Source of the DNA: Bacteroidota bacterium
Lineage (GTDB): Bacteria; Bacteroidota; Bacteroidia; Bacteroidales; JABHKC01
Length of the DNA: 46,387 nt
NCBI GenBank assembly: GCA_018692315.1
Contig: JABHKC010000217.1
Location: 1 to 46,387 of the forward strand
Reading direction: 5' to 3'
The translations under genes and the position numbers were made by a program. A model generated the notes under the pieces. That model saw only the letters and a list, made by a program, of their open reading frames with translations. It made no database searches and was not told the DNA's origin. Shown in pieces: positions 7,363 to 26,429 of this stretch (position 1 is the first letter of the stretch; each line of letters begins with the position of its first letter).

Positions 7363-10300
7363 ATGAGAACAAAAGTATTAATAGCATTACTAATTTTAAC
7401 TTCCATATATAAGCTAAGCTATTCTAAAGAAGTAAATATTAGTATTGCAAAAAAAGTAGCAGAGAATATATTCTATGAACGATTTCCTTCTTCGATCAAC
7501 AAGTTAAGCCATAAAATAATAGCTGCCGAATACACCGAATTTGAAAGCACAATTCCTCTTTACTATATTTTTGATATTTCCAACGAAAATGGATTCATTA
7601 TTATTTCTGCGGACGATTATGTTCAGCCAATTTTAGGATATTCTTTCGAAGGAAATTTTGACTTTTCAAAAAATAGTATGCCACCGGCGCTAATTGATTT
7701 TCTTGAAAACTACAAGAGCCAAATCCTTTATGTTAAATCAAATAAAATATTGCCTGATGGTAAAATAAAAGCAGAATGGGCTTTTTATAAAACTACTTTC
7801 GATAACAATTTCAAAAATACTAAAAGTGTATCGCCTCTTGTGTCAACAAACTGGGACCAAGATTGTTATTATAATGCCGATTGCCCTATAGACGCAAATG
7901 CACCTTGGTATCTTTGCGGACGTGTCTATGTTGGCTGTGTAGCTACGGCTATGGGCCAAATTATGAAATACCACGACTATCCACAAAACGGAGCAGGTTC
8001 GCATACATATAATGCTGGAACTTATGGCAGTCTGACATCGAATTTTGGCAACGCTACATACAATTGGGGAAATATGCCAAATATTGTCAATAGCTCAAAT
8101 TCCGATGTTGCTCAATTGCTGTATCATTGTGCCGTGTCGGTAGATATGGATTTTGGAATTGATGGCTCCGGTGCATATACAAGTGATGCAAGGAACTCAC
8201 TTGTAAATTATTTTAATTATTCAAGTTCGGCTGACATGAAAAACAAAAATCAATATACTACTAATCAATGGATTAATTTGCTAAAAGACCAATTAGACAA
8301 TTCAAAACCCATGCTTTATAGAGGGGATGGACCTTCAGGGGGACATGCTTTTGTTTGCGATGGATATAATGGAAGCAATTATTTTCATTTTAACTGGGGA
8401 TGGAGTGGTTCATACGACGGTTATTTTAGTGTATCAAATTTGAATCCAGGCACCTCAACTTTCAACCAAAACCATGGTGCTGTTATAGATATTACACCAG
8501 CTGCAACAATTCCAGTAGCAGATTTTGAGGCAGATGTAACTACAATATTGGTTGGAGAATCGGTAAACTTTTACGATTTATCGTACGGAGTTCCATCATC
8601 ATTTACATGGATATTTAGTGGAGGAATTCCGAATAGCTCAAGCTTACCAAATCCCGGAAATATTGTATATAATACTATTGGAAATTACAATGTTAGCTTG
8701 ACAGCAACTAACTATTTAGGAACAGACACAGAAACTAAAGTTGAATATATTCATGTTGTTGCAGGTTTTCCAGACCTTGTAGTTCAGAGTTTTTCAATTT
8801 CGCCTCAGGTAATTCCACCAGATTCGTCAATAGTTTCAACAGGTGCAATTTTTAATATGTCAAGTTATATTGCACCTCAAAGTGTGCTAAACTATTATAT
8901 TTCGCTTGATACAAACTTCAATCCTATAGTAGATTTTCACTTTCATAGCGAAAATGTCCCACAACTGTCAGCCTTTTCTTATTTCCCATTTACACACACA
9001 GTACCAATGCCTTACTTGTCAACCATGGGTACATATTATATGTTTTGTGTAATCGATGGTGATAATTATGTTGTTGAAACAAACGACGACAATAACGAAT
9101 TTTTTCAAGCTGTAACTGTAGCTTTGCCAGATTTGGTTATTCAAAATTCCGAACTTGATCCTGTTGAAGTAATTCCGGGCGAAGAAATAATTGCAAGTTG
9201 TACTTTCAAAAATGTAGGCAATAGTACTGCCGAGGCAAATAACATTAAGTTTTTCCTTTCGGAGAATAGTATCTACGAAAGTTTCGATATATTGATTGGG
9301 ACTGAAAATGTCGATTCTATTCAAGCTCAGGAAGAGATTATAATAAATAAATCACTGATAATTCCACAAAATACAGCTATTGGAAATTGGAAAATAATTT
9401 TTTATGCTGATCATGATGAAGCGGTTTACGAAAGTAATGAATCAAATAATTATTCCTTCGTACAATTTACTGTAGAGCCTCCATTACCCGATTTGCAAAT
9501 TATTAATCCAAACTCAAGCTCAGATACAATTTTTGCTGGAGAAACAATTGAACTTAGCTTTGACTTGATAAACTCCGGTACAATTTTATCGGAATCAAGT
9601 TTAATAAAATATTATTTATCGGAAGATAGCATAATTGATTCTGGAACAGATGTTTTTCTTGCATCCCAAACTGTAGATTCAATTTCAATCGGAAATACAA
9701 TTCTGGTTGATACCTCAGTTATGATACCCGGTAATATGGACATAGGAAGTTGGGTAATAATTTTACTTGCTGATGCTACCGAACAAATTCAGGAAGAAAA
9801 CGAAGATAATAATACCCAGTTTCTCGAAATAGAAATTGTGTCATCATTTCCTGATTTATCAGTTCAGAACATTTTTGTAAGTAGCTCTAACATTCCGGCA
9901 GGTTCTGATGTTTCCGTCAATTGCGAAATTCTAAACTCTGGCTTTAATTTTGCCGAAGCCTCTATTCTAAAATACTATCTTTCAAAAACCGAAACATTAG
10001 ATTCCGACTCTATCTTACTTAGCTCAGACGAAGTTTTTAGTTTGGTTAGCACAGCCACAAGCTACGAATCTGCAGAAATTCACATTCCATATTCGACCCA
10101 GCCAGACGACTATTTCCTATTATTTTATGCCGATGCAAATTATCAAATCTTAGAATCTAACGAAAATAATAATATCGAATCATATCAAATAACTGTGGAG
10201 GAGGCAAGTACGATTCTATTCCATGAAAATGAAAATATCAGTTGTTTCCCAAATCCTTCGAACGGAATTTTTGAAATTGAACTAAAATCAGGAAGTAATT

Positions 10301-10470
10301 TTGAAATTGAAGTTTCAGACATAATTGGGAACTCTATATTTAGAAAAAGCATTATAGATGATTCAAATTCGAATACAAAAATTGATATTTCTAATAAATC
10401 GAAAGGGATTTATCTACTGTCTGTAAAATCTGAGAACTTTCATATTGTTCAGAAAATTATCATTCATTAA
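7363..10470 (+). CDS. Secreted C10 (streptopain-like) cysteine protease with PKD, CARDB repeats and T9SS domain
   Basis: 1035-residue exported protease. Order: signal peptide (about 1-21); an inhibitory prodomain of the Spi/SpeB type (about 22-145); a peptidase C10 catalytic domain (about 155-380); a PKD domain (about 385-465); four CARDB-like repeats of about 115 residues, each opening with PDL and closing with a YE/VE-x-NE-x-NN turn (about 470-945); and a T9SS type A sorting domain (about 950-1035, CFPNPSNGIFEIE). The catalytic Cys is probably residue 192 in VYVGCVATAMGQ and the catalytic His residue 328 in GGHAFVCDG, followed by FHFNWGWSG. The family is made as a zymogen and matured by cleavage of the prodomain. 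The repeats probably act as a stalk or binding tail. Degradation of external protein is likely, but no substrate can be seen. Confidence 0.92.
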   Translation: MRTKVLIALLILTSIYKLSYSKEVNISIAKKVAENIFYERFPSSINKLSHKIIAAEYTEFESTIPLYYIFDISNENGFIIISADDYVQPILGYSFEGNFDFSKNSMPPALIDFLENYKSQILYVKSNKILPDGKIKAEWAFYKTTFDNNFKNTKSVSPLVSTNWDQDCYYNADCPIDANAPWYLCGRVYVGCVATAMGQIMKYHDYPQNGAGSHTYNAGTYGSLTSNFGNATYNWGNMPNIVNSSNSDVAQLLYHCAVSVDMDFGIDGSGAYTSDARNSLVNYFNYSSSADMKNKNQYTTNQWINLLKDQLDNSKPMLYRGDGPSGGHAFVCDGYNGSNYFHFNWGWSGSYDGYFSVSNLNPGTSTFNQNHGAVIDITPAATIPVADFEADVTTILVGESVNFYDLSYGVPSSFTWIFSGGIPNSSSLPNPGNIVYNTIGNYNVSLTATNYLGTDTETKVEYIHVVAGFPDLVVQSFSISPQVIPPDSSIVSTGAIFNMSSYIAPQSVLNYYISLDTNFNPIVDFHFHSENVPQLSAFSYFPFTHTVPMPYLSTMGTYYMFCVIDGDNYVVETNDDNNEFFQAVTVALPDLVIQNSELDPVEVIPGEEIIASCTFKNVGNSTAEANNIKFFLSENSIYESFDILIGTENVDSIQAQEEIIINKSLIIPQNTAIGNWKIIFYADHDEAVYESNESNNYSFVQFTVEPPLPDLQIINPNSSSDTIFAGETIELSFDLINSGTILSESSLIKYYLSEDSIIDSGTDVFLASQTVDSISIGNTILVDTSVMIPGNMDIGSWVIILLADATEQIQEENEDNNTQFLEIEIVSSFPDLSVQNIFVSSSNIPAGSDVSVNCEILNSGFNFAEASILKYYLSKTETLDSDSILLSSDEVFSLVSTATSYESAEIHIPYSTQPDDYFLLFYADANYQILESNENNNIESYQITVEEASTILFHENENISCFPNPSNGIFEIELKSGSNFEIEVSDIIGNSIFRKSIIDDSNSNTKIDISNKSKGIYLLSVKSENFHIVQKIIIH

Positions 10471-10636: not shown

Positions 10637-12067
10637 CTACTTCTTAATAATATGCTCAATATCTTCAATATTTTGCTTAAATTCTTTATCAATATCCATT
10701 AGATTTTTTACTGTCCTTGAAGCATGTAGAACAGTGGCATGATCTTTCTGACCAATTTCACGACCAATTTTCGATAAAGAATTATTTGTGCAATTTTTTG
10801 CAAAATACATGGCAATTTGTCGTGCCTGAACAATTTCTCTTTTTCGTGTTTTAGAAAGCAATTCTTTTACAGGAATATCGAAAAAATTACTGACAACTTT
10901 GATTATAAAAGGATTATCAATTTCTTTTTGATTGCTTTTCACCAATTCGCTTACAATTTTTCTTGCCAGATCAATAGTAATTTTCTTTTTGGTAAGAGTA
11001 GATTGAGCCAAAAGGGTAATCAAAACACCTTCAAGGTCTCTGATATTGTTTGTGATATTCGATGCTAAAAAATCTAAAATCTTACTGTCAAGTTCAATTC
11101 CATTTGTATAAATCTTTCTTTTTAAGATTTCAAGTCGTGTTTCGTAATGCGGAAAATCAAGTTTTGCAGTAAGTCCCCACCTAAAACGCGAAATTAATCT
11201 GTTTTCGATTCCTGAAAGGCTCGATAGTGGCTTGTCTGAAGTGAAAATTATTTGCTTTTTATTTTGATGGAGATGATTAAAAATCTGAAAAAATATTTCC
11301 TGCGATTTTTCTTTTCCACTAAACTCATGAATATCGTCAATTATTAAAACATCTAAAGCCTGATAAAAATTTATGAAATCGTTGATATTTTTATTTCTAA
11401 TTGATTCAACAAACTGAGTCATGAATTTGTTTGAACTCACATATAAAACAACGTAATCGGGAAATTTGCTGACAATCTCATTTCCTATTGCATTCACTAA
11501 ATGAGTTTTTCCTAAGCCAGAGCCACCATAAATTAAAAGCGGATTGAATATAGTTTTTAATGGATTTTGCGAAATATCAATTCCTGCTGTGCGAGCCAAT
11601 TTATTGCATTCTCCTTCAATAAAATTACTGAAAGTGAAATCTTCATTTAGTTGAGAATCAATATGTAATCGTTTGATTCCGGGAACCACAAACGGATTAG
11701 GAATAAGTCTGTTTTCTTGCGAGGAAATAAACTTGTCTTGATTACTTTTTAAAGTATAATTATTTTTCGATGGAAAAGTATTCGTCAATGGTTTTCTGTC
11801 TGAATGCTGATTGTTTTCAATAATTACATTGTATTCCAATTTGGCATCTTTTCCAATTTCCTTTTTTAATATTTTTCCTAGAATATCAATAAATTGTTCT
11901 TCTAAATATTCGTAAAAAAACGGACTTGGAACTTGAATTGTAAGAATACTACCTTCAAGTCTAAGCGGAACAATAGGTTCAAACCATGTTTTGAAACTAA
12001 CAGTAGGCAAGTTGTCTCTCAAAATTTGAAGACAATTATTCCATATTTTTATATGATTATTGCTCAT
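10637..12067 (-). CDS. dnaA: Chromosomal replication initiator protein DnaA
   Basis: 476-residue AAA+ ATPase that binds DnaA boxes and melts the origin. Domain I (about 1-85) begins MSNNHIKIWNNCLQIL and contains TVSFKTWFEPI. A short variable linker, domain II, covers about 86-125. Domain III (about 130-350) shows Walker A GGSGLGKTH (about 181-189), Walker B LIIDDIHEF (about 239-247), and an arginine-finger region IENRLISRFRWGL. Domain IV (about 360-476) holds the DNA-binding signature GQKDHATVLHASRTV (about 437-451). Length is normal. It is transcribed alone. The divergent gene is an unrelated giant CotH protein, and neither dnaN nor recF is nearby, so this is not the classical dnaA-dnaN arrangement. 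Confidence 0.97.
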   Translation of the reverse strand: MSNNHIKIWNNCLQILRDNLPTVSFKTWFEPIVPLRLEGSILTIQVPSPFFYEYLEEQFIDILGKILKKEIGKDAKLEYNVIIENNQHSDRKPLTNTFPSKNNYTLKSNQDKFISSQENRLIPNPFVVPGIKRLHIDSQLNEDFTFSNFIEGECNKLARTAGIDISQNPLKTIFNPLLIYGGSGLGKTHLVNAIGNEIVSKFPDYVVLYVSSNKFMTQFVESIRNKNINDFINFYQALDVLIIDDIHEFSGKEKSQEIFFQIFNHLHQNKKQIIFTSDKPLSSLSGIENRLISRFRWGLTAKLDFPHYETRLEILKRKIYTNGIELDSKILDFLASNITNNIRDLEGVLITLLAQSTLTKKKITIDLARKIVSELVKSNQKEIDNPFIIKVVSNFFDIPVKELLSKTRKREIVQARQIAMYFAKNCTNNSLSKIGREIGQKDHATVLHASRTVKNLMDIDKEFKQNIEDIEHIIKK

Positions 12068-12647: not shown

Positions 12648-15600
12648 ATGAAAAATATTTACTTCATTTCTATATTTTTTTTCATTAATATTAATCTTTT
12701 TTCTCAGCAATTGTATATCAATGAAATAATGTCTTCGAACGATACTACAATTGGTGACTTTGATGGCGACTATACCGACTGGATTGAAATTTATAACAAT
12801 ACTCCTGACTCTATAAATCTGGCTGGATATTTCCTGTCTGACGACACAACAAACTATTTTCAATGGAGTTTTCCAAATGTTTCGATTCAAGCATACGATT
12901 TTTTAATAATTTGGGCAACACTAAAAGATACTGTTTATCCAAATTTAGAATTGCATACAAATTTTAAAATTAGTGCATTGGGCGAAACTATTAGCTTATA
13001 CTCACCTGATAGTAGCGTTCTCGTAGATCAAATAATTCTTGGACCATTAGATACAGATTATTCCTATGGGCGTCAACCAGATGGAGGTACAAATTTAGTA
13101 ATTTATATTGAACCCTCTCCAGGCTATCCGAATGCAACTACCGGCTTCATTGGCTACATCGATCCTCCGACTTTCTCACAAATAGCAGGCTTTTATACCG
13201 ATTCTTTCTATCTATTTCTAAGTTCACAAAATTCTTTGGATTCCATTTATTATACTCTTGATGGCTCAGAACCTACAATCAATTCAAATATTTTTTCCGA
13301 TTCTATTCTTGTTTCAAGCAGAATAGGAGAACCAAATGGCATTTCAGAGATTCAGACAGCCACTGATTTAGGAATAATTTTCGACTATTGGAGTCCACCG
13401 GATGGAGAAGTTTTCAAAATAAATGTAGTAAGAGCAAGAGTAATAAAAAGCGGATATTTGCCCAGCGATGTTATAACCAAATCATATCTGGTAGATACAA
13501 ATATGTTCAACCGATATACATTTCCAATCATTTCATTAAATACTGACTCTGTCAATCTTTTTGACGATACAGTTGGAATATACGTGCCAGGAGCAAGTTT
13601 TGACGGAGTAGATCATCATACATGCAATTTTTCTCAAAGTGGGAGAGATTGGGAAAAAAGAACTCATATTGAATTTTTTGAACAAAATGGTGAACTTTCA
13701 CTCGATCAGGATATTGGAATCAGAATTGCAGGAAACGCATCAAGAACATTAAATGTAAAATCTTTGCGACTGTATGCCAGAGATGATTATGGAGATCCAG
13801 ATTTTAATTATCAATTTTTCACTACAAAAGATCAGGACAACTGGAATCGTATAACCCTTAGAACAGCTGGAAATGATTGTCATAATGCATATATGAGAGA
13901 TGGATTTCATCATTATATGCTCAAAGATCTTGATGTTGATTTAATGCAATACCGTCCTATAATTTTATTTATAAATGGCGAATATTGGGGTATCCATAAT
14001 ATTCGAGACAGATATAGCACAGAGTATATTTTTGATAATTGGGGAGTAGAAGAAGATAGCCTTGACTTTTTAGAAATTAACTCCGAAATAATTAGTGGAG
14101 ATGTCATTCATTATAACAATATGAATGATTTTTTGGATAACAATGATATGAGCGATTCAGCAAACTATGCATACATAAAAACTCAAATTAATGTAGAAAA
14201 CTTTATAGACTACATATCAGGAAACCTTATTATTTGTAATACCGACTGGCCTTATAATAATATCAGATATTGGAGAAAACGAACCAATTCTTACAAACCA
14301 GATGCTCAACCAGGTCACGATGGACGATGGAGATGGATGGTTTATGATACAGATTATGGATTTGCACGAATTCAACCATCTTCTTATAATCAAATAGCAA
14401 ATGTACTAACAAGTAGTGGATATTCTACAGGTATTATGAGACGCTTGATTGGGAACAGCGAGTATCCTGGCAACCAAGAATTTAGAGAAGACCTGCTTAA
14501 CAAAATATGCGACGAACTAAACACAAGTTTTGATACTACCTATACTTTGAGTGTTATTGATTCTTTTAAAAATCGTCTTGTTCCCGAAATGGAAGAGCAC
14601 ATTGACCGATGGAACAAACCGGGAAATTATAATTGGTGGGCAAATACTCAAATAGAAACCAATATGAAAAACTTTGCAAGAGAACGTCCCGACTACCTTA
14701 GAGGTCATTTAAGAAGTCAGTTTGGCATTAGCCAAGATGCAAAACTTACTTTAAATGTATCTAATATAAATGCAGGTGTTATTAAAATAAACAGTAAAAT
14801 TATTGAGCATTCAACAGCAGGTGTTCCAGAGCAAACATATCCTTGGCAAGGAATATATTTTCCCGGAATACCCTTTACTCTCACAGCAATGAAGAATCCA
14901 GGATACAATTTTGTATGCTGGAGCACGGGCGACTCTTGTGTTACTATAAATGTTGTTCTATCATCGGATAGCACAATTACTGCAATATTCGAAATAGATT
15001 CTACAACAATTTCAGGATTATATATCAATGAATTTCTCGCTGTAAACCTAAGCGATACTGTTGATGAGTTTGGAGGAACCGAAGACTGGATTGAACTTTA
15101 CAACAATGGTATCGACACAATAGATATTCAACGACTATTTTTTACCGACAGCCTCAACAAGCCTGCAATGTGGCAAATCCCTGAAAGAAACACCGATTCA
15201 ACAATTATTCCACCGGGCGAATACTTATTGCTTTGGGCTGACAATTCTCCTGAAAAAGGTGTTTTACATCTTGGATTCAGATTAGATGGATTTGGGGAAC
15301 AAATTGGAATTGCAAAAATTATAGGAACTGATACTATAATTATTGACACCCTCACATATAATTTACAAACAAACAATATTTCATTCGGCAGATTTCCTGA
15401 TGCTTCAAACACTCTGAAGTATTTTGAAAATACAACACCTTTTGAAGCAAACCAATATGCAATATCGCCACCTGAAAACACAGAAGGATTAATGATTAAT
15501 GAAATATTGCCAGACAACGACAACGGAATATACGATAATTACGGCGAACGCGAAGATTGGATAGAACTCTATAACAACGGTAGCCAACCAATTGATATTG

Positions 15601-16922
15601 GAGGCCTATTTTTAACAGACGACTTCTCCGATCCATTTAAGTTTCAGATGTCGAAAAATTATCCAGAACTAACAATAATCCATCCGGGCGATTTCTTACT
15701 ACTTTGGGCAGATAATGATACTGAACAAGGCATTTTTCATTTGAATTTTAAACTAAGTAAAAATGGAGAAGAATTTGCAATCATACAGTTCGATGAAGGC
15801 AATTTGAATTTCTTAGATTCAAAAGTTTACAACCAATTAGCTCCAGATATCTCTTACGGAAGATATACCGATGGATCGAATAGCTGGGAAGAATTTACAA
15901 CAACAACTCCCGGCTACCCAAATATGTCAGACACAATGACCACAACATCTCCATCATTATTTCGCCGGCTTGACATAAACGAAATAATGACAATAAATCT
16001 ATCAGACTCTACCGACAATTACAATGAATATGATGATTGGATTGAGATTTTTAACGATGGAATACTACCATTAGATCTTGGCGGACTTTATATATCGAAC
16101 AATCGTGAAAATCTGACAATGTATAAAATTCAAGACACATATCCCGACTCTACAACAATTCCGGCAGGTGGTTTTAAGGTATTGTGGGCTGACAACCAAA
16201 CCCAACAGGGAGTTTTGCATTTAAATATCAATGTTAGTGAAAATGGAGGCGATCTCTACTTAGTTCAAATTTATCAAACCGATACCTTAGTTATAGACTC
16301 GTTCAGCTATGGAATTCAAATGCCCGATATGTCCTACGGCAGGTATCCTGATGGAAGCTACAATCTTGAGATTTTTTCTATTACAACTTTCATGGCACCA
16401 AACATTACAAGCTTAGTGCAAGGGACTCAGACAATTGAGCTTCCACAAAATTGGAGTATTATGTCATCATTCATCGATCCTGATTATCCAAATTTCCATC
16501 AGGTTTTTATCAATATTTTCGAAAATGTAATAATTGTTAAAAATGATATAGGCTCAATATACTATCCATCATGGGCAATAAATAATATCACCGACATGGA
16601 AATTGGTGAAGGATATTATGTAAAAATGATGAGTGCAGAAACTCTCGAAATAGAAGGGAAGGTAATTATTCCGGAATTAACTCCATTAGATTTGCCTCAA
16701 GGCTGGAGCCTGATTGGATACATTCGTCAATCTTTTGCCCCGATTGGTCAAATGCTAAACAGCATTTCCGGAAGTTTAATTTTAGTGAAAAATGAAGCCG
16801 GATTTGTTTATTGGCCAGCCTACTCAATAGACGAATTAGGAAATTTGTATCCCGGCAAAGGATACTTAATTAAATTGACAAATGGCGACATACTAACATA
16901 CCCTAGCAATAATACAAATTAG
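12648..16922 (+). CDS. Giant exported lamin-tail / CotH kinase-family protein lacking a T9SS domain
   Basis: 1424-residue exported protein. Order: signal peptide (about 1-20, ending FSQQ); lamin-tail domain LTD1 (about 22-165); a chitobiase/hexosaminidase C-terminal-like domain (about 172-285, with YYTLDGSEPT); a CotH kinase-like domain (about 290-690); a short InlB B-repeat-like module (about 700-785); LTD2-LTD4 (from about 790, 947 and 1106); and two copies of a GWS-IG module (about 1262-1424). The CotH domain shows NTDWPYNN and RWRWMVYDTDYGF, which match the asparagine/aspartate metal- and ATP-binding positions expected for this atypical kinase family. Unlike its neighbour at 17101, it stops right after the second GWS module, with TAG then in-frame TGA and TAA, and has no visible sorting domain. 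How it is located is unclear. Secreted-protein phosphorylation is possible but unproven. Confidence 0.85.
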   Translation: MKNIYFISIFFFININLFSQQLYINEIMSSNDTTIGDFDGDYTDWIEIYNNTPDSINLAGYFLSDDTTNYFQWSFPNVSIQAYDFLIIWATLKDTVYPNLELHTNFKISALGETISLYSPDSSVLVDQIILGPLDTDYSYGRQPDGGTNLVIYIEPSPGYPNATTGFIGYIDPPTFSQIAGFYTDSFYLFLSSQNSLDSIYYTLDGSEPTINSNIFSDSILVSSRIGEPNGISEIQTATDLGIIFDYWSPPDGEVFKINVVRARVIKSGYLPSDVITKSYLVDTNMFNRYTFPIISLNTDSVNLFDDTVGIYVPGASFDGVDHHTCNFSQSGRDWEKRTHIEFFEQNGELSLDQDIGIRIAGNASRTLNVKSLRLYARDDYGDPDFNYQFFTTKDQDNWNRITLRTAGNDCHNAYMRDGFHHYMLKDLDVDLMQYRPIILFINGEYWGIHNIRDRYSTEYIFDNWGVEEDSLDFLEINSEIISGDVIHYNNMNDFLDNNDMSDSANYAYIKTQINVENFIDYISGNLIICNTDWPYNNIRYWRKRTNSYKPDAQPGHDGRWRWMVYDTDYGFARIQPSSYNQIANVLTSSGYSTGIMRRLIGNSEYPGNQEFREDLLNKICDELNTSFDTTYTLSVIDSFKNRLVPEMEEHIDRWNKPGNYNWWANTQIETNMKNFARERPDYLRGHLRSQFGISQDAKLTLNVSNINAGVIKINSKIIEHSTAGVPEQTYPWQGIYFPGIPFTLTAMKNPGYNFVCWSTGDSCVTINVVLSSDSTITAIFEIDSTTISGLYINEFLAVNLSDTVDEFGGTEDWIELYNNGIDTIDIQRLFFTDSLNKPAMWQIPERNTDSTIIPPGEYLLLWADNSPEKGVLHLGFRLDGFGEQIGIAKIIGTDTIIIDTLTYNLQTNNISFGRFPDASNTLKYFENTTPFEANQYAISPPENTEGLMINEILPDNDNGIYDNYGEREDWIELYNNGSQPIDIGGLFLTDDFSDPFKFQMSKNYPELTIIHPGDFLLLWADNDTEQGIFHLNFKLSKNGEEFAIIQFDEGNLNFLDSKVYNQLAPDISYGRYTDGSNSWEEFTTTTPGYPNMSDTMTTTSPSLFRRLDINEIMTINLSDSTDNYNEYDDWIEIFNDGILPLDLGGLYISNNRENLTMYKIQDTYPDSTTIPAGGFKVLWADNQTQQGVLHLNINVSENGGDLYLVQIYQTDTLVIDSFSYGIQMPDMSYGRYPDGSYNLEIFSITTFMAPNITSLVQGTQTIELPQNWSIMSSFIDPDYPNFHQVFINIFENVIIVKNDIGSIYYPSWAINNITDMEIGEGYYVKMMSAETLEIEGKVIIPELTPLDLPQGWSLIGYIRQSFAPIGQMLNSISGSLILVKNEAGFVYWPAYSIDELGNLYPGKGYLIKLTNGDILTYPSNNTN

Positions 16923-16931
16923 CAATGATAA

Positions 16932-16964
16932 CTTGTTGGAATAACAAGAACTCTTTTTATTTTG
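16932..16964 (+). terminator. Weak terminator-like hairpin
   Basis: Stem CTTGTT (16932-16937) / AACAAG (16943-16948) with a 5-nt loop, followed within a few bases by CTTTTTATTTT. It lies just after the 1424-residue gene. The stem is only 6 bp, so it may be weak. Confidence 0.45.
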
Positions 16965-16990
16965 AGTGCTTGTAGGTGCAAAAATATTAG

Positions 16991-16998
16991 TAAATTTG
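16991..16998 (+). promoter_or_regulatory. Bacteroidota -7 promoter box (TAAATTTG)
   Basis: Exact TAnnTTTG match about 100 bp upstream of the ATG at 17101. Together with the weak hairpin before it, this suggests that the second CotH paralogue has its own promoter and a leader of about 100 nt. Confidence 0.45.
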
Positions 16999-17100
16999 CA
17001 TTTATGAATAACAGTTTCATTTTATACTTTAATAATTAATTCTTGAAAATAAAATAACATTAGAGTAGTAAAAAATAAAATAGAAATCTAAAAAAAAATT

Positions 17101-20100
17101 ATGAAAAAATTTATTGTGCTAATTTCAATTTGTTTTGTTTACACAACCAATTATTCTCAACAATTGTACATAAATGAGATTATGCCGTCAAATGATACAA
17201 CAGTTGCAGATTTTAATGGGAATTTTTCCGATTGGATTGAATTATTTAATTCATCAGCCTCAGCAATAAATTTGCAAGGCTATTTTCTTACTGACAACGA
17301 AAATGATTCTACAAAATGGGTTTTCCCAAATATTATGATTGATGCAAATAGCTTCCTGATAATTTGGGCCTCATTAAACGATACTGTTTATCCTAATGGA
17401 GAAATACATACGAACTTCAAATTGAGTTCCTCAGGCGAAGTTTTATCTTTATACTCTCCCTTAGACACAAGCTTGATAGATCAATTCGATTCAATCAGTA
17501 TTGCAAACAATTATTCCTACGGAAGATTTCCTGATGGAGCTAATGATTTATACCATTTTTCTGTATCATCATTCAATTTGCCAAACGACACAAGTTCTGG
17601 TTATCTACCAGTATTTAATAGCAATTTGCTAATAAACGAATTTATAACAGCCAACGACTCAATTTTGACTGATAATTTTGGTGAATACGACGATTGGATT
17701 GAAATCTATAATCCTAGTAATGACACCATTAACATGAGTGGATATTTCCTAACAGACGACCTTAACAATCCCTCAAAATGGCAAATTCCAAATACCGATT
17801 CTGTATCAACTACAATTCTTCCTGGAGGATTTTTACTATTTTGGGCAGATAATGAAACTTCGCAAGGAATTATGCACACTAATTTCAAATTAAGCTCAGG
17901 TGGCGAACAAATTGGAATTTCACAATTCATCAACGGTGAATATATTTTTTCAGATACCATAACCTTTGGAATACAATTAACAGATATTTCATTTGGAAGA
18001 ATTCCTGATGGTAGTCAAACTTTCCAAAATTTTCAAAATCCTACGCCAGGCACAAGCAATAATAGTGCCCCTATAATTGAAATTTTAAATCCCCCTGTAT
18101 TTTCTCATGATGCTGGTCTTTATTTAGACTCTTTCTATTTAAAGCTTAGCTCCATAAATCCTGACGACACAATATATATTACCAGAGATGGATCTGTTCC
18201 TGATGAGAACTCCGAGATGGTTACCGACTCAATTCTTATAAAATCCCGCATTGGTGAACTATTTTCAATTGCAGGAATAAGAACTACATTCACAGAATCT
18301 TATCAGGGATTCAATTCATGGCATTTGCCCGATGAAGCTGATGTTTTCAAAATCAGTACAATTAGAGCAATTTGCAAAAAAAATGGTGCTATTTCAAGCA
18401 AAATAATAACAAAATCCTTTCTTGTAGATCAAGATATTCATAACAAATATTCAATTCCCATTTTTTCTTTAGTTACTGATTCTTTGAATCTTTATGACTC
18501 CACTATAGGCATATATATACCAGGTGCCAACTATGACCCTACTTATTCTAGTACATATGCATGGACTACAGCAAATTATTCCCAATCAGGTATTGAGTGG
18601 GAACGTCCAATTCATGTTGAATTTTTTAATGAAAGTGGAGTAAAGGATTTTTCATTTGATGGAGGTGTTAGAATTCAAGGACACTTAACCAGAACCATGA
18701 ATATTAAATCGCTTCGAATTTACTTGCGTTCAGAATATGGATTAAGCCAACTCAATTATCAATTATTTCCAGATTATGAAGTAGGTGTTTTCAAACGATT
18801 TCTTTTAAGAAACTCAGGAAATGATTGTCAATATTTATATTTTAGAGATGCATTTATGCAAAGCATTGTCCCGGAAGAACATTCTATAACTCAATCATAC
18901 AGACCTTCAATAGTGTTTCTTAATGGCGAATTTTGGGGTATTCACAACATTAGAGAACGATTTGACAAATACTTTTTCGAAACCAAATACAATATTCCTG
19001 AAGATAGTTTAGACTTACTTGAATTAGATGCTGTACCAATAGAAGGAGATGAAAATGACTGGGATCTACTTGATGAATTTGTCGATGATATGGATATGAC
19101 AGATTCAAGCAACTATGCTTATGTAAAAACGAAAATTGATGTAGAAAACTACATTGATTATCTTGCAACTGAATTTTTTGTAAATAATACTGACTGGCCT
19201 CAAAACAACATCAAGTTTTTTAGGTATAGAGGTTCTTATAATCCAAACGCACCATATCCAAAAGATGGGAGATGGCGTTGGTTAACTTTTGATTTAGATT
19301 TAGGTTTTGATCGAACTTCATCATACTCAAATAACTTAATCCAAACAAAATTCAATAATACCGGATGGTCAGCAAAGTTTATGCGACATTTAGTAGGAGT
19401 ACCAAGCGATTCTTCAATCCCTGGAAATCCAGAATTTAGAGAAAAATTTATAACTCGATTTGCAGATCTCCTTAACTCTAGCTTTAAAAAAGAACATACA
19501 ACAGAACAATTATATATATTTGAAGATCGTATCGAAGATGAGTTCATAATTCACAGAGACAGATGGAATTATCCATCCTCAAGTACACATTCATCCCATA
19601 TTGGGAAAGTGCACACTTTTGCAGAGGAAAGACCCAATTATATCTTTCAACAACTCGAAGGTTGGTTTACAAACACAATAAATGAAATTGACACAATAAG
19701 CCTTGATGTATCTGATATCGTAGCAGGAAATATAAAAATTAATACAATTACAATTAATGAAGAATTATCTGGAGTTTCTTCATCAGTTTATCCTTGGGAA
19801 GGAAGATATTTCGATGGTGTCCCTGTAACAATTACTGCAATCCCAAATACTGGTTACCTCTTTGACTCATGGTCGGATGGCGACACTACGCAAATTAGAG
19901 TAGTTTCGACAATTTCCGATTCTACCTACACTGCAATATTCGTTGTTGACTCTACATATACCCCCCCTCCAACATACAATCTATTCATCAACGAGTTTCT
20001 CGTTTCAAACAATTCTGATATCACTGACAACTATGCCGAATATGAAGACTGGATTGAAATATACAATGCGGATACTATGGCAATTGACTTAGGTGGATTT

Positions 20101-23100
20101 TATTTTACTGACGATTTTTCAAATCCATTAAAATGGCAAATTCCTACAACTTATCCGGATTCTACAACAATCCAAGCCGGAGAATTTCTTGTATTTTGGG
20201 CAGACAATCAACCCGAGCAAGGAATCCTGCATCTTGATTTTAAACTTAGCGGAAGCGGAGAACAAATCGGCTTATTAACATCCATTCAAGGCATTACAAA
20301 TTTCATCGACTCTGTTTCTTATGTACAACAGTATTCAGACACATCTTTTGGCAGATATACTGATGGAACAAACAATTGGGAACATTTCAGAATAACTACA
20401 CCAGGCTATGAAAATATTTCTGATACTGCTGGACTACCTACTTCTGAAATTACTAATTTATTTATAAACGAATTTCTTGCTGTAAATTTAACCGACACAA
20501 CAGATAACTATGGAGAATACGATGATTGGATAGAATTATATAATGCAGATTCAATTGCTGTAAATATAGGAGGCATGTACATTACCGACGATCTGACAAA
20601 TTTAACAATGTGGCAAATTCCGCACAATTCGCCTGATTCAACTACAATTCAACCCGGAGAATTTCTTGTACTATGGGCAGATAAAAATGTAGGTCAAGGA
20701 ATCTTGCACACCGATATTAAACTTGGCGGAACAGGCGAAAGTATTGCAATTGTTCAAGTGTTAGGAAACGACACCATTATTATAGATTCATTATCATTTG
20801 GAATTCAATCTGAAGATATTTCTTACGGAAGATACCCTGATGGCACAAGTACATTAGAATATTTCAGCACTACTTCTTTCGAAGCTCCAAATGTTTATGG
20901 AAGTCCGAATTTCCAAACAATTACTGATTTATATATAAACGAACTTCTCGCATCCAATAATAATGATATTGTTGACAATTATAACGAAAATGAAGATTGG
21001 ATAGAAATTTACAATGCCGGACAAAGTCCTGTTGACATTGGTGGTTTGTATTTGACTGATACTTTTCCAAACCAAAGTTTATATCAAATTCCAACTACTT
21101 ACCCCGACTCAACTACAATTGCTCCCCAAGAATACTTAGTACTTTGGGCCGATAATAATATAGAACAGGGAATTTTACATTTAGGTTTGAAACTGTCTGG
21201 CTCCGGCGAACAAATCGGAATTAGCCAATTCAACGGTCAAAATTTAGTTTATCTTGACTCTATCACCTTCGGACAACAATTTCCAGATACTTCATTCGGA
21301 AGATATCCTGACGGAACTATTGATTGGGAATATTTTCTAACAACAACACCCGGCAGTTCGAACATTTCAAATACGACAGTTAATCCCCCTACAGAAATTT
21401 CAAATTTATTCATAAACGAGTTTCTCGCAATAAATGTTGGAGATACAACAGATAACTCTGGCGAATATGATGATTGGATTGAACTGTACAATGCTGATAC
21501 TATTGCTGTGAATATTGGTGGATTGTTCATTACAGACAATTTGACGAATCCAACTATGTGGCAAATCCCAGACAGTTATCCCGACTCAACTACAATTCAA
21601 CCGGGAGAATTTCTGGTACTTTGGGCTGATAAAGATACGACTCAAGGAATCTTGCATACTAATATTAAACTTACAGGAAGCGGCGAAAATATTGCTATTG
21701 TTCAAGTTTTAGGAAACGATACAATTATTATAGATTCCCTAAGCTTTGGAATTCAATCTGATGACATTTCTTTTGGAAGATATCCCGATGGTTCGAGCAC
21801 ATTGGAATATTTTAGTACTACTTCTTTCAGAGCTCCAAATATTTATGGAAGTCCAAATATTCAATCAATCAACGATTTGTATATAAACGAACTTCTTGCA
21901 TCAAATACTGGCGATATTGTTGATAACTACGGCGAAAACGAAGATTGGATAGAATTGTACAATGCAGGAACAAGTCCTATAGATATTGGCGGATTGTATT
22001 TTACAGATTCCTTAGCCAACCAAAGCCTGTATCAAATTCCAAATACTTATCCCGACTCCACAACAATTGCTCCCGGAGGATTTTTAGTACTTTGGGCCGA
22101 TAATGATACTGAACAAGGAATATTGCATTTAGGTTTGAAACTATCTGGTTCCGGCGAACAAATCGGTATTAGTCAATTCGATGGACAAAACTTAGTATGG
22201 CTTGATTCTATAACTTTCGGACAGCAAATTGCTGATACTTCCTTTGGAAGGTATCCTGACGGAACTACAAACTGGGAATCATTTAATAATACAAGTCCGG
22301 GTAGTACTAATGTCGAAAACTCAATTTTATCATCACCAAATTGGAACATACCACAAATTACCACTGATAATCATGTAATTTTAATACCAAATACTGCAAA
22401 TATTACAATAAATGGAATTCCTATAGAAAATGGCGACTGGATCGGAACTTTCTACGATTCGGTCGGAACCTTAGTTTGCGCAGGCTCTCTTTTGTGGGAA
22501 GGAATAACAAATTCTATAACAGCCTGGGGAGCAGATATCGGAGACGATGGATTTGTCGTTGGAGAAGTACTTAAATGGAAAATATGGGATGCATCGGAGG
22601 AAACAGAATTTCAAGCAATTGCAAGCTATGATCAAACCACATTTCCAAACACAAATACATATTCAAATCAAGGAATTAGCGGTATTGAAAGCTTAAATGC
22701 TTTTTCCAACCAAACCCTTGATTTACCATCCGGATGGAGCATTTTCTCTACATATATTTTACCAAATGAATTAAATATAGATTCCGTCTTTGTAACTATT
22801 TCTCAAGATATAATTATGATAAAAAGTGGAAATGGCTTGGTTTATTGGCCCGAATATTTTATCAATAATATTGTAGATATGATTGCAGGTCAAGGATATT
22901 TAGTAAAAATGCTCAATGCTCAAACAATAGATGTAGAAGGTATTATACTAATTCCTGAAGTTACAGAAATACCAATAGTTTCAGGTTGGAGCATCATAGG
23001 ATATTTACGCCAAAGTTCGGCTCCAATAGACCAAATGCTCAGCGATATTGTTCAAAATATAATTATGGTGAAAAGCGGATCCGGTTTGGTTTATTGGCCA

Positions 23101-23880
23101 ACCTACTTTATTAATAATATTGGCGACATGCACCCTGGGCAAGGATACAGAATTAAATTGACAGTTGCCGATACTCTAATTTACTCAGCAAACACATATT
23201 CAAATGTATCAAAATCAGAAACATATGATTCAAATCCCGATTCACAAATAAAGAGTACAGGCAGCAATATGGTTCTTGGAATTCCTAACTATGCTTGGAC
23301 AGTGAAACCAAAAGTTGGCTCAGAAATTAATGTATTCTCCGAAAGTGGAATACTTGTTGGAAAAGCTACATACCAAGGGAAAAACATGGCAATTACAATT
23401 TGGGGCAACGACAAATTGTCGAAAATTGCAGATGGAATTGAAACTGACGAAAAGTTTATTATCAAACTTTGTACTGAAAATAAATTTGATAAAAACAGTA
23501 AAACTACATGCGAAATTATCCTCGAAGTAGAAAATTGGATAGAAGGAGACGAATATTTCTCCGAAAATAAAATTTCGGTTATCGAAAAATTCTCCCAATC
23601 CGTTCAGAACAATCAGAATATAGTTTTATATCAAAACATTCCGAACCCATTCAAAAGCAAAACCCAAATTAAGTTTTATTTGCCAAAATCGATGAAAGTT
23701 GAAATAACAACCTACAATTTATTAGGAGAAAAAATTGAATGCCTTATAAATGAGACTTTTGCTGCTGGAAATCAAACTATTGAGTTTAGTTCAAATAATT
23801 ATCCTTCCGGAACATATTTTTACAAAATGAAAGCAGAAAATTTTGAAGCAACCAAATATTTGAATATCATAAAAAGATAG
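17101..23880 (+). CDS. Giant secreted lamin-tail / CotH kinase-family protein with T9SS domain
   Basis: 2259 residues, the largest gene in the window and a paralogue of its upstream neighbour. Order: signal peptide (about 1-19); LTD1 (20-150) and LTD2 (176-320); chitobiase C-terminal-like domain (331-445); CotH kinase-like domain (450-850) with NTDWPQNN and RWRWLTFDLDLGF; InlB B-repeat-like module (860-955); LTD3 to LTD7 (starting about 960, 1118, 1277, 1434 and 1592); a beta-rich module (1745-1860); two GWS-IG modules (1873-2035); a related pre-terminal module (2057-2160); and a T9SS type A sorting domain (2173-2259, NIPNPFKSKTQIKFYLP). Each LTD carries EDWIELYN or a close variant and a WAD motif. 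All positions are approximate. CotH proteins elsewhere are kinases of secreted proteins; here the domain sits inside a long repeat stalk, so a surface or extracellular role is inferred. Confidence 0.88.
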   Translation: MKKFIVLISICFVYTTNYSQQLYINEIMPSNDTTVADFNGNFSDWIELFNSSASAINLQGYFLTDNENDSTKWVFPNIMIDANSFLIIWASLNDTVYPNGEIHTNFKLSSSGEVLSLYSPLDTSLIDQFDSISIANNYSYGRFPDGANDLYHFSVSSFNLPNDTSSGYLPVFNSNLLINEFITANDSILTDNFGEYDDWIEIYNPSNDTINMSGYFLTDDLNNPSKWQIPNTDSVSTTILPGGFLLFWADNETSQGIMHTNFKLSSGGEQIGISQFINGEYIFSDTITFGIQLTDISFGRIPDGSQTFQNFQNPTPGTSNNSAPIIEILNPPVFSHDAGLYLDSFYLKLSSINPDDTIYITRDGSVPDENSEMVTDSILIKSRIGELFSIAGIRTTFTESYQGFNSWHLPDEADVFKISTIRAICKKNGAISSKIITKSFLVDQDIHNKYSIPIFSLVTDSLNLYDSTIGIYIPGANYDPTYSSTYAWTTANYSQSGIEWERPIHVEFFNESGVKDFSFDGGVRIQGHLTRTMNIKSLRIYLRSEYGLSQLNYQLFPDYEVGVFKRFLLRNSGNDCQYLYFRDAFMQSIVPEEHSITQSYRPSIVFLNGEFWGIHNIRERFDKYFFETKYNIPEDSLDLLELDAVPIEGDENDWDLLDEFVDDMDMTDSSNYAYVKTKIDVENYIDYLATEFFVNNTDWPQNNIKFFRYRGSYNPNAPYPKDGRWRWLTFDLDLGFDRTSSYSNNLIQTKFNNTGWSAKFMRHLVGVPSDSSIPGNPEFREKFITRFADLLNSSFKKEHTTEQLYIFEDRIEDEFIIHRDRWNYPSSSTHSSHIGKVHTFAEERPNYIFQQLEGWFTNTINEIDTISLDVSDIVAGNIKINTITINEELSGVSSSVYPWEGRYFDGVPVTITAIPNTGYLFDSWSDGDTTQIRVVSTISDSTYTAIFVVDSTYTPPPTYNLFINEFLVSNNSDITDNYAEYEDWIEIYNADTMAIDLGGFYFTDDFSNPLKWQIPTTYPDSTTIQAGEFLVFWADNQPEQGILHLDFKLSGSGEQIGLLTSIQGITNFIDSVSYVQQYSDTSFGRYTDGTNNWEHFRITTPGYENISDTAGLPTSEITNLFINEFLAVNLTDTTDNYGEYDDWIELYNADSIAVNIGGMYITDDLTNLTMWQIPHNSPDSTTIQPGEFLVLWADKNVGQGILHTDIKLGGTGESIAIVQVLGNDTIIIDSLSFGIQSEDISYGRYPDGTSTLEYFSTTSFEAPNVYGSPNFQTITDLYINELLASNNNDIVDNYNENEDWIEIYNAGQSPVDIGGLYLTDTFPNQSLYQIPTTYPDSTTIAPQEYLVLWADNNIEQGILHLGLKLSGSGEQIGISQFNGQNLVYLDSITFGQQFPDTSFGRYPDGTIDWEYFLTTTPGSSNISNTTVNPPTEISNLFINEFLAINVGDTTDNSGEYDDWIELYNADTIAVNIGGLFITDNLTNPTMWQIPDSYPDSTTIQPGEFLVLWADKDTTQGILHTNIKLTGSGENIAIVQVLGNDTIIIDSLSFGIQSDDISFGRYPDGSSTLEYFSTTSFRAPNIYGSPNIQSINDLYINELLASNTGDIVDNYGENEDWIELYNAGTSPIDIGGLYFTDSLANQSLYQIPNTYPDSTTIAPGGFLVLWADNDTEQGILHLGLKLSGSGEQIGISQFDGQNLVWLDSITFGQQIADTSFGRYPDGTTNWESFNNTSPGSTNVENSILSSPNWNIPQITTDNHVILIPNTANITINGIPIENGDWIGTFYDSVGTLVCAGSLLWEGITNSITAWGADIGDDGFVVGEVLKWKIWDASEETEFQAIASYDQTTFPNTNTYSNQGISGIESLNAFSNQTLDLPSGWSIFSTYILPNELNIDSVFVTISQDIIMIKSGNGLVYWPEYFINNIVDMIAGQGYLVKMLNAQTIDVEGIILIPEVTEIPIVSGWSIIGYLRQSSAPIDQMLSDIVQNIIMVKSGSGLVYWPTYFINNIGDMHPGQGYRIKLTVADTLIYSANTYSNVSKSETYDSNPDSQIKSTGSNMVLGIPNYAWTVKPKVGSEINVFSESGILVGKATYQGKNMAITIWGNDKLSKIADGIETDEKFIIKLCTENKFDKNSKTTCEIILEVENWIEGDEYFSENKISVIEKFSQSVQNNQNIVLYQNIPNPFKSKTQIKFYLPKSMKVEITTYNLLGEKIECLINETFAAGNQTIEFSSNNYPSGTYFYKMKAENFEATKYLNIIKR
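20455..22350 (+). repeat. Tandem duplication of a 948-bp two-LTD unit
   Basis: Copy 1 spans 20455-21402 (LTD4-LTD5) and copy 2 spans 21403-22350 (LTD6-LTD7), each 316 codons. The paired regions keep long identical stretches in protein, such as VLGNDTIIIDSLSFGIQS and LHLGLKLSGSGEQIGISQF, with many silent differences. This is an in-frame repeat expansion inside the 2259-residue gene. Confidence 0.85.
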
Positions 23881-25215: not shown

Positions 25216-25779
25216 ATGAATTCATTAGCAGGAAAAAAAGTTATATTAGGAATTACCGGTAGCATTGCAGCTTACAAATCGGCACATTTAATAAGGTTGC
25301 TGATTAAAGAAGGTGCTCAGGTAAAAGTAATTATGACACCCTATGCAAAAGAATTTATTACACCAGTAACAATTGCAACTCTGTCGAAAAATACTGTCCT
25401 GCACGACTTTTTTTCTCACGATGATGGACAATGGAATAGCCACGTTGAATTAGGAATTTGGGCTGATTTAATGCTAATTGCCCCAATAACAGCAAATACA
25501 ATTGCAAAAATGGCAAATGGAATTTGCGACAATTTACTTCTAACTACATATCTATCAGCACGCTGCCCTGTTATGATAGCTCCAGCAATGGACTTAGATA
25601 TGTTTCAGCATCCTGCTACAACAAAAAATATTGAAACTCTAAAAACTTTTGGGAATATTGTTGTAGAGCCCACTGCCGGTGAACTTGCAAGTGGCCTTGA
25701 AGGAAAAGGCAGAATGGAAGATCCTGAAAAAATAATCGAAAATATTAAGTTTTTTTTTACCCAAAAAGCAACAAATTAA
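25216..25779 (+). CDS. coaBC: Phosphopantothenoylcysteine decarboxylase domain (CoaC half of CoaBC)
   Basis: Flavin-dependent decarboxylase that makes 4'-phosphopantetheine in coenzyme A synthesis. The 187 residues hold a complete CoaC domain: the Rossmann-like start ILGITGSIAAYKSAHLIRLL, catalytic His76 in HVELG, and substrate-recognition motif PAMDLDMF (123-130). That motif has Asp126 where the classical PxMNxxMW motif has Asn. The frame ends with TAA at 25777-25779, soon after a run of nine T (25750-25758). The CoaB half continues in the -1 frame. In nearly all bacteria with this layout the two are one fused protein. Either the CoaC stop is bypassed by slippage at the T-run, or the run carries an indel. 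Confidence 0.9.
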   Translation: MNSLAGKKVILGITGSIAAYKSAHLIRLLIKEGAQVKVIMTPYAKEFITPVTIATLSKNTVLHDFFSHDDGQWNSHVELGIWADLMLIAPITANTIAKMANGICDNLLLTTYLSARCPVMIAPAMDLDMFQHPATTKNIETLKTFGNIVVEPTAGELASGLEGKGRMEDPEKIIENIKFFFTQKATN

Positions 25780-26429
25780 AAAATAAAGTATTCCTGATAA
25801 CAGCTGGTCCTACTCACGAAGCAATTGATCCAGTGAGGTTTATAGGAAATCATTCCTCCGGCAAAATGGGATTTGCTTTAGCCGAACATATTGCAAACTT
25901 AGGTGGATTTGTACATTTGGTTTGCGGTCCCAGCTCATTAGAAATTTCTCATCAAAATATTAATGTAGTAAATGTTGTTTCGGCAGAAGAAATGTACATT
26001 GAAGCTTCCAACATTTTTCCAAAAGCCGACATAACAATCCTTTCTGCAGCAGTTGCCGATTATACTCCAGTTCAAAAGTCGAGAGAAAAAATTAAAAAAA
26101 AGGATGGAAATTTTTCAATTGAATTGCAAGCTACCAAAGATATTGCTTTCGAATTAGGGAAACTGAAAAGAAAAAATCAAGTTCTCGTAGGATTTGCACT
26201 TGAAACGCAAAATGAAGTTGAAAATGCCAAGAAAAAAATGATTAAAAAAAATCTTGATATAATTGTTTTAAACTCGTTAAAAGACAATGGAGCAGGATTT
26301 AAACACGATACGAATAAAATCTCAATTATCTCTAAAAACAATAAAATTTTAAATTACAAGTTGAAGCACAAAAAAGAAGTAGCAAAAGATATTGTAGATA
26401 GAATAGTTGATTATGTTGAATTTCAATAA
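25749..26429 (+). CDS. coaBC: Phosphopantothenate-cysteine ligase domain (CoaB half of CoaBC), frame-broken from CoaC
   Basis: CoaB joins phosphopantothenate to cysteine using CTP. In this frame a stop lies at 25746-25748, and coding sense begins at 25749 inside the T-run. It runs through the CoaB opening strand KVFLITAGPTHEAIDPVRF, then FIGNHSSGKMGFALAEH (dinucleotide-like fold), ILSAAVADYTP, and the KIKKKDG lysine loop, to the end at 26429. No ATG precedes the first strand; the first GTG (25833) would remove the essential ITAGPT loop. This half is therefore probably made only as a fusion with CoaC through a -1 shift, or the break is an assembly error. It ends 8 bp before porD. Confidence 0.85.
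   Translation, partial: VFFYPKSNKLKNKVFLITAGPTHEAIDPVRFIGNHSSGKMGFALAEHIANLGGFVHLVCGPSSLEISHQNINVVNVVSAEEMYIEASNIFPKADITILSAAVADYTPVQKSREKIKKKDGNFSIELQATKDIAFELGKLKRKNQVLVGFALETQNEVENAKKKMIKKNLDIIVLNSLKDNGAGFKHDTNKISIISKNNKILNYKLKHKKEVAKDIVDRIVDYVEFQ

Follow-up and report, generated by a model that had tools for sequence, protein, structure and literature searches.

The window described here is positions 1–46,387 of contig JABHKC010000217.1 of a Bacteroidota bacterium of the order Bacteroidales (assembly GCA_018692315.1). It carries two adjacent genes, A and B, for giant exported proteins that contain lamin tail domains (LTDs) and a CotH domain. B closes with a type A sorting domain of the type IX secretion system (T9SS). 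How, then, does A end, which has no such domain? Its last 165 residues form a tandem of ~80-residue modules, GWS1 and GWS2, each starting near ...WS. Gene A encodes an intact exported protein, and we propose, with a probability of about 45%, that its terminal GWS–GWS pair is an alternative C-terminal signal in place of the sorting domain. The replacement itself is shown by homologous proteins; the signalling role is what we infer from sequence comparison. The features of the two genes, all on the + strand, are as follows.

12648..16922 (+), gene A: exported LTD/CotH protein of 1424 residues with terminal GWS–GWS pair and without sorting domain (open reading frame (ORF), Pfam, signal-peptide-like N-terminus)
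13185..13487 (+), A: chitobiase-like / Fn3_assoc region (PF13290, PF13287)
13719..14699 (+), A: CotH kinase-fold domain with Asp motifs N-T-D-W (residue 531) and Y-D-T-D (residue 566) (PF08757, E 1e-33; alignment; profile match to PDB 5jd9)
14856..14999 (+), A: InlB-like repeat (PF18998, E 6.4e-5; 23.3 bits, slightly below the Pfam cut-off of 23.6)
15474..15788 (+), A: top-scoring lamin tail domain of the array (PF00932)
16425..16919 (+), A: terminal GWS–GWS pair, module 2 from ~16671, stop codon directly after (alignments, model)
17101..23880 (+), gene B: exported LTD/CotH paralogue of 2259 residues with type A T9SS sorting domain (ORF, Pfam)
18139..18420 (+), B: Fn3_assoc region (PF13287, E 1.9e-6)
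18667..19644 (+), B: CotH domain, N-T-D-W at residue 696 and F-D-L-D at residue 730 (PF08757, E 5e-36)
19747..19941 (+), B: InlB-like repeat (PF18998, E 1.6e-7)
22324..22662 (+), B: beta module (residues ~1742–1854), 5' of the GWS pair (BLAST among upstream parts)
22711..23193 (+), B: internal GWS–GWS pair (residues 1871–2031; alignment, profile match)
23233..23610 (+), B: pre-terminal module between GWS pair and sorting domain, limits approximate (sequence; one of 43 tails used for a hidden Markov model (HMM))
23641..23856 (+), B: type A T9SS sorting domain (residues 2181–2252; PF18962, E 4.8e-8; TIGR04183, E 3.6e-6)

Both ORFs lie where a sequence-only reading of this stretch had placed them. 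The two proteins are 43% identical over 1265 alignment columns and their GWS pairs 48% identical over 161 columns; the DNA identity is 64–87% in the aligned pieces. Each N-terminus has charged residues, a hydrophobic stretch and then Gln-Gln, and is called a signal peptide by a scripted hydrophobicity rule rather than a trained predictor, as are all such calls below. The sequence-only reading had given A and B a common module order. From the LTD through the Fn3/chitobiase-like (Pfam Fn3_assoc/CHB_HEX_C_1), CotH and InlB-like modules up to the LTD array (seven LTD stretches in B, one of them an extra near the N-terminus, and four in A) this order stands, but it ends there, since the beta module, which had been placed after B's GWS pair, actually precedes it and is not seen in A. 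Stretches similar to this module occur in many proteins of the genome, terminal and non-terminal alike. The same reading was right about the C-termini. Residue 1424 of A is the last and lies immediately past GWS2; a search with PF18962 and TIGR04183 at E up to 1 found no type A sorting domain in A, while B has its match at residues 2181–2252. In the 178 bases that separate the genes, each of the three forward frames is interrupted by stops, and no remnant of a pre-terminal module or sorting domain shows up there or in the 900 bases downstream of A when these are read through stops.

Is this ending peculiar to A? We searched the source genome (4.98 Mb, 248 contigs) with a two-row profile of the pair at E 0.001 and read the ORFs around the matches. 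In 47 of the 110 matches the ORF ends within five residues of the pair, mostly as ...YPxN-stop; in 55 it continues and in eight it runs off the contig. The terminal ORFs include fragments at contig ends, the full pair being present in 40. Among these full pairs 35 have no residue at all past the match, and in 31 the last Gly/Ala-Tyr stands exactly 17 residues from the stop. The number of residues after the match thus has two modes, zero and 207–235 (41 of the 55 continuing ORFs), the long tails consisting mostly of a pre-terminal module followed by a sorting domain of type A. We built a sorting-domain HMM on the C-terminal 85 residues of 43 continuing ORFs, and it matched none of the 47 terminal ORFs; its 43 matches among the 55 are circular, because it was built from those same 43, a limit that does not touch the first figure. 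A second HMM, of the pre-terminal module, matched seven of the 47, which we take for upstream beta modules. All three kinds of stop codon are used by the terminal genes.

Nor is the ending confined to one genome. At E 1e-15 the pair was found in 65 of 393 genomes of the order and in 31 of 395 across the phylum, the source genome counted in both; four of the order genomes hold 85, 48, 32 and 16 matches at E 1e-20. In the 56 order loci that were read (one from the source genome), pairs ending within five residues of the C-terminus occur in G004, G031, G040, G069, G122, G144, G176, G220 and G363. The 19 phylum loci read comprise four terminal pairs (G422, G571, G588 and G718, the first two being single-contig genomes), 14 with a sorting domain and one running off its contig. 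In a collection of named genomes, from which the source genome is possibly excluded, the best 80 of 233 loci contain 81 pairs: 19 are terminal (six residues or fewer), 52 are followed by a sorting domain according to the HMM, one runs off the contig and nine have other tails, two of these being only 7 and 11 residues long and some of the others type A-like by eye. These 80 loci come mostly from metagenome bins of Bacteroidales or Bacteroidia; a few bear the label Flavobacteriales or Ignavibacteria, and one that of Desulfobulbaceae.

What happened to the sorting domain of A? We searched 60 genomes for relatives of A; 13 have matches at E 1e-60, the source genome being included in both numbers. 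No GWS pair was seen in the 21 relative loci, which were read in part. A search for relatives that carry a T9SS domain had been proposed in the sequence-only reading, and such relatives exist: the C-terminus lies within 14 of these loci, and all 14 ends are type A-like (eight by HMM, six by eye). CotH–LTD proteins elsewhere therefore look like ordinary T9SS cargo, and in A the sorting domain has been replaced rather than simply lost.

The same exchange is seen within the source genome. Of its 12 CotH places, A and the one on contig C153, which has the same design as A, end in the GWS pair; B and those on C164, C136, C6, C62 and C149 end type A-like, mostly by eye, the match at C62 containing a stop. 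One place on C15 has a type B domain, the second lies outside this comparison of endings, and the short CotH proteins of C240 and C91 carry no tag. Among the eight family C25 peptidases, two have a propeptide and a terminal GWS pair (L073, L088), two a GWS pair and a tail of 210–215 residues (contigs C126 and C128), and three a sorting domain without GWS (one on C34 and two on C196, assigned by matching ORF lengths); the eighth is PorU-like and lies beside PorV. A family C10 peptidase with a Spi inhibitor domain carries a sorting domain at 7363–10470 of the window and a terminal GWS pair in L105. On a quick tree of 150 pairs over ~160 columns (57 terminal and 93 with a sorting domain, the latter class defined in the source genome by a tail of 200–235 residues, with 12 other-tail pairs uncounted and contig-edge pairs excluded as well), the ending changes at least 30 times, as against a mean of 45.8 and a minimum of 38 in 500 shuffles. 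For the 79 pairs of the source genome there are 15 changes, the shuffled mean being 26.6 and the minimum 19. The changes are fewer than in the shuffles, yet many; the ending is thus partly inherited and often exchanged.

What do the proteins with a terminal pair have in common? Thirty-four of them have signal-peptide-like starts, none of these has a lipobox by a simple rule, and they reach 2116 residues. The families found in them, among 25 of 46 listed, include the SprB repeat (9), PKD_4 (8) and SBBP (7), and further Peptidase_C25 with propeptide (2), Peptidase_C10 (1) and S8 (1). The genome has a T9SS, with SprA, PorV-family proteins and at least 150 type A matches; of 21 type B matches 15 exceed the cut-off, and all lie on contigs other than C217. 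Since the cargo is of T9SS type and is without a recognised tag, a route across the outer membrane is needed. The economical reading is that the terminal pair assumes the sorting domain's role. We envisage that A would enter the periplasm by Sec and that the folded terminal pair would hand it to an export or attachment machinery of the outer membrane, most likely the T9SS of this genome. In B and other proteins whose pair precedes a pre-terminal module and a type A domain, sorting would fall to the latter. A and B would then be two surface CotH/LTD proteins, released or held by different C-terminal tags, and not signalling partners. Rather more tentatively, the terminal pair may belong, next to types A, B and C of the T9SS, to one more class of domain for sorting or attachment at the outer membrane.

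Is the pair itself a recognizable domain? A Pfam scan of 78 pairs gave scattered weak matches with at most three members per family, and an NCBIfam scan of 32 terminal pairs at E up to 10 gave seven families with one member each; no family recurred in either. A profile of the pair has no match among PDB sequences at E up to 10. AlphaFold2 predicts the structure of the pair with confidence (mean pLDDT 96.3, from a 78-row alignment). In the literature, searched by titles and the starts of abstracts and with subscription papers mostly outside, there was no description of the GWS pair or of a T9SS protein with LTD and CotH domains.

Several observations weigh against a signalling role. Neither the type A models nor the type B model TIGR04131 match any of the 32 terminal pairs in NCBIfam at E up to 10; one of the 34 terminal proteins, L141, does score with TIGR04183, from residues 546–618 of its 1010. 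Motif E of type A domains, in the available text of the sources (PMC10202324; PMC11969387), has a conserved basic residue in the last strand, and no conserved Lys or Arg is seen by eye in the last strand (~...LTYPAN) of the 32-row alignment. Type A domains have the Ig-like fold of a seven-stranded beta-sandwich; when the pair and GWS2 by itself were modelled, neither model had a clear PDB match, and Foldseek found none at E 0.001 or better. The best VIA match is HPr for the pair (Z 4.1, 70 residues aligned, root-mean-square deviation 3.0) and vitamin K-dependent carboxylase for GWS2 (Z 4.8, 75 aligned, 3.8); a T9SS sorting domain is absent among the VIA matches listed for the two models. We did not take these weak structural matches as a sign of a new fold.

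Position and neighbourhood tell in the same direction. In ~40 proteins the pair is internal and followed by a sorting domain of its own, and in six of the 55 continuing ORFs it precedes a tail that is FISUMP-like by motif; the pair must therefore be more than a terminal tag. Compared column by column, terminal and internal pairs diverge by at most 0.2 bit and show no signature, although some columns exceed 300 shuffles, in which relatedness was uncontrolled. This small difference counts against a signal because a signal might show a constraint of its own. In favour of one, terminal pairs vary slightly less over their final 20 columns (1.30 vs 1.57 bits), but the same holds for GWS1 (1.84 vs 2.01 bits). 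Lastly, among 20 regions around PorV-family genes, five of them controls from genomes without a listed pair match, only that on contig C42 has a terminal-GWS neighbour, PorP/SprF genes lying outside the search. It is the weak difference between terminal and internal pairs, the internal pairs themselves, the missing basic residue of motif E and the lack of a travelling PorV gene that hold our confidence at the value given above.

We had considered a dedicated PorV-family shuttle for the terminal form, and dropped it because C42 stands alone among the 20 regions. At that place (L361, 551–4844) the PorV-family gene follows the terminal-GWS gene by 280 bases; judging by gene order, it may be PorQ. 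On contig C88 of G069 a gene with GWS pair and sorting domain lies 3.5 kb upstream of a PorV-family gene, and contig C8 of G144, the genome with 85 GWS pairs, has four PorV-family ORFs in tandem (L345, 5950–11301). As for the FISUMP-like tails, possibly a third kind of ending, contig C91 (L134, 1–16500) bears three successive GWS-pair proteins with such tails of 192–195 residues.

Might the pair be a stalk, an adhesion module or a ligand-binding module, the terminal-GWS proteins reaching the surface untagged, for example bound to a sorting-domain protein or by an unrecognised route? We consider this possible, if on the doubtful side. It would account for the presence of one and the same module, with little difference in sequence, at internal and terminal positions, for its place before sorting domains or FISUMP-like tails, and for the surface-type families of the cargo. 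It accounts poorly for an exact terminus that recurs across the phylum. Tag and pair, moreover, swap at the same place in homologues, which weighs against a stalk because a stalk alone would need a further route.

That the terminal-GWS proteins, A included, never leave the periplasm or are kept on the inside of the outer membrane we judge improbable. Their signal-peptide-like starts, the lack of a recognised sorting domain and, in the 34 examined by the simple rule, of a lipobox are all consistent with it. However, they include proteases of families C25 and C10, with a propeptide or an inhibitor domain, besides SprB-repeat and PKD proteins, and other members of these families in the genome bear T9SS domains.

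The sequence-only reading had further named the adjacent proteins as a candidate two-component surface system. In such a system one CotH kinase would stay in the cell and the other be secreted. Do the CotH domains have what a kinase needs? Both belong to the CotH family, with PF08757 scores of 117.7 bits (A) and 125.3 bits (B) against a cut-off of 23.8. Two Asp residues are invariant in nine aligned CotH domains (of the 12 in the genome), A and B included, so that the kinase-fold residues sought in that reading are present in both proteins. The nine-row profile matches Bacillus CotH (PDB 5jd9), placing these Asp against N-F-D and W-D-Y-D; the CotH region of A alone has no match among PDB sequences at E up to 1. 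In the available text of PMC7821199 the active-site Asp residues of Bacillus subtilis CotH are D228 and D251, to which our invariant Asp are related through the 5jd9 profile and not by direct alignment. Kinase activity of both domains is plausible on this sequence evidence.

A two-component system is nevertheless very unlikely. Besides the conserved Asp it has in its favour the adjacency of A and B, a second contig, C15, with two CotH places 3.5 kb apart (their ends uncompared), and the relative G030 with two adjacent A-like genes, both with type A-like ends by eye. On the other hand, eight of the 12 CotH places stand alone on their contigs, including that of C153, which ends like A; and A and B are old paralogues, as their 43% identity indicates. 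Adjacency and old paralogy are all that ties them, and the suggestion finds no support.

We reject as least credible of all that A is a truncated gene which lost its pre-terminal module and sorting domain, as the sequence-only reading allowed: neighbouring B has both modules, and in stop-tolerant reads of 900 bases downstream of 39 terminal genes longer than 150 residues a pre-terminal or sorting-domain HMM match follows four (C176, C98:31782, C22 and C209), some of which may thus be recent breaks, but no such match follows A, the end point is shared by 47 ORFs (of 110 pairs in the genome) and recurs in other families and distant genomes of the phylum, with three different stop codons among the terminal genes, and so recurrent an ending at one point argues against truncation.

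On contig C176 (L079, 1330–2346, +) the terminal pair is followed, at most 12 bases past its stop, by an ORF in the same frame that contains a second GWS pair, a pre-terminal module and a sorting domain; this may be a gene freshly broken, a duplicated one or two separate genes. In the source genome terminal-GWS ends recur at the edges of contigs and within small ORFs (e.g. L146, L147, L151), several of them with the identical final residues ...IKMLAADTLLYPAN; this may reflect recent copying of the tail, breaking the assembly.

The pair of genes is flanked by dnaA on the opposite strand on one side (10637–12067, –, directly upstream of gene A) and by a BamD-like gene on the other. A candidate promoter of gene B lies just 3' of A:

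16970..16998 (+): possible Bacteroidota-type promoter of gene B (TTG ... TAAATTTG), from a pattern scan

The candidate is weak, since it is one of 19 matches to the Bacteroidota-type pattern on the + strand of the window. Farther along the window coaBC is present as two ORFs in different frames (25216–25779 and 25833–26429, +), a Flavoprotein domain followed by a DFP domain, which is either a natural split or a frame error; and a 1082-residue ORF at 33036–36284 (+) has no Pfam match at E 0.001.

What would follow? Prediction of T9SS secretomes relies on searches for domains of types A and B. Should the terminal pair act as a signal, such searches overlook at least 34 exported proteins in this genome, gingipain-like proteases and giant adhesin-like proteins among them, and a new, unrelated domain becomes available for asking which C-terminal domains the machine reads. 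If it is a further class, it has spread through dozens of cargo proteins within a few lineages of the Bacteroidota while invisible to current family models, and secretome predictions for these bacteria lose a large share. If it is no signal, dozens of cargo proteins of T9SS type with one shared end domain still need a route across the outer membrane.

How does this compare with known systems? In their N-x-D and D-x-D motifs A and B are like the CotH kinase family (PF08757; Bacillus CotH, 5jd9); unlike Bacillus CotH, they hold the domain within giant exported LTD proteins. With LTD proteins A and B have the LTD repeats in common, here placed around CotH, and it is the terminal GWS pair in place of a sorting domain that sets A apart. 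The type A domain of the T9SS (PF18962, TIGR04183) is, like the terminal pair, C-terminal with an exact end, is borne by a wide range of exported cargo and is exchangeable in homologues. A type A domain is both required and sufficient for secretion and is removed by PorU. The GWS pair differs from it in consisting of two ~80-residue modules and in occurring also internally, upstream of true type A domains. According to the available text of PMC10202324, one T9SS accepts C-terminal domains of different families, namely type B (PF13585, TIGR04131) and type C (ChiA). Types B and C are thus a precedent for several C-terminal families served by one machine, which is what we propose for the GWS pair.

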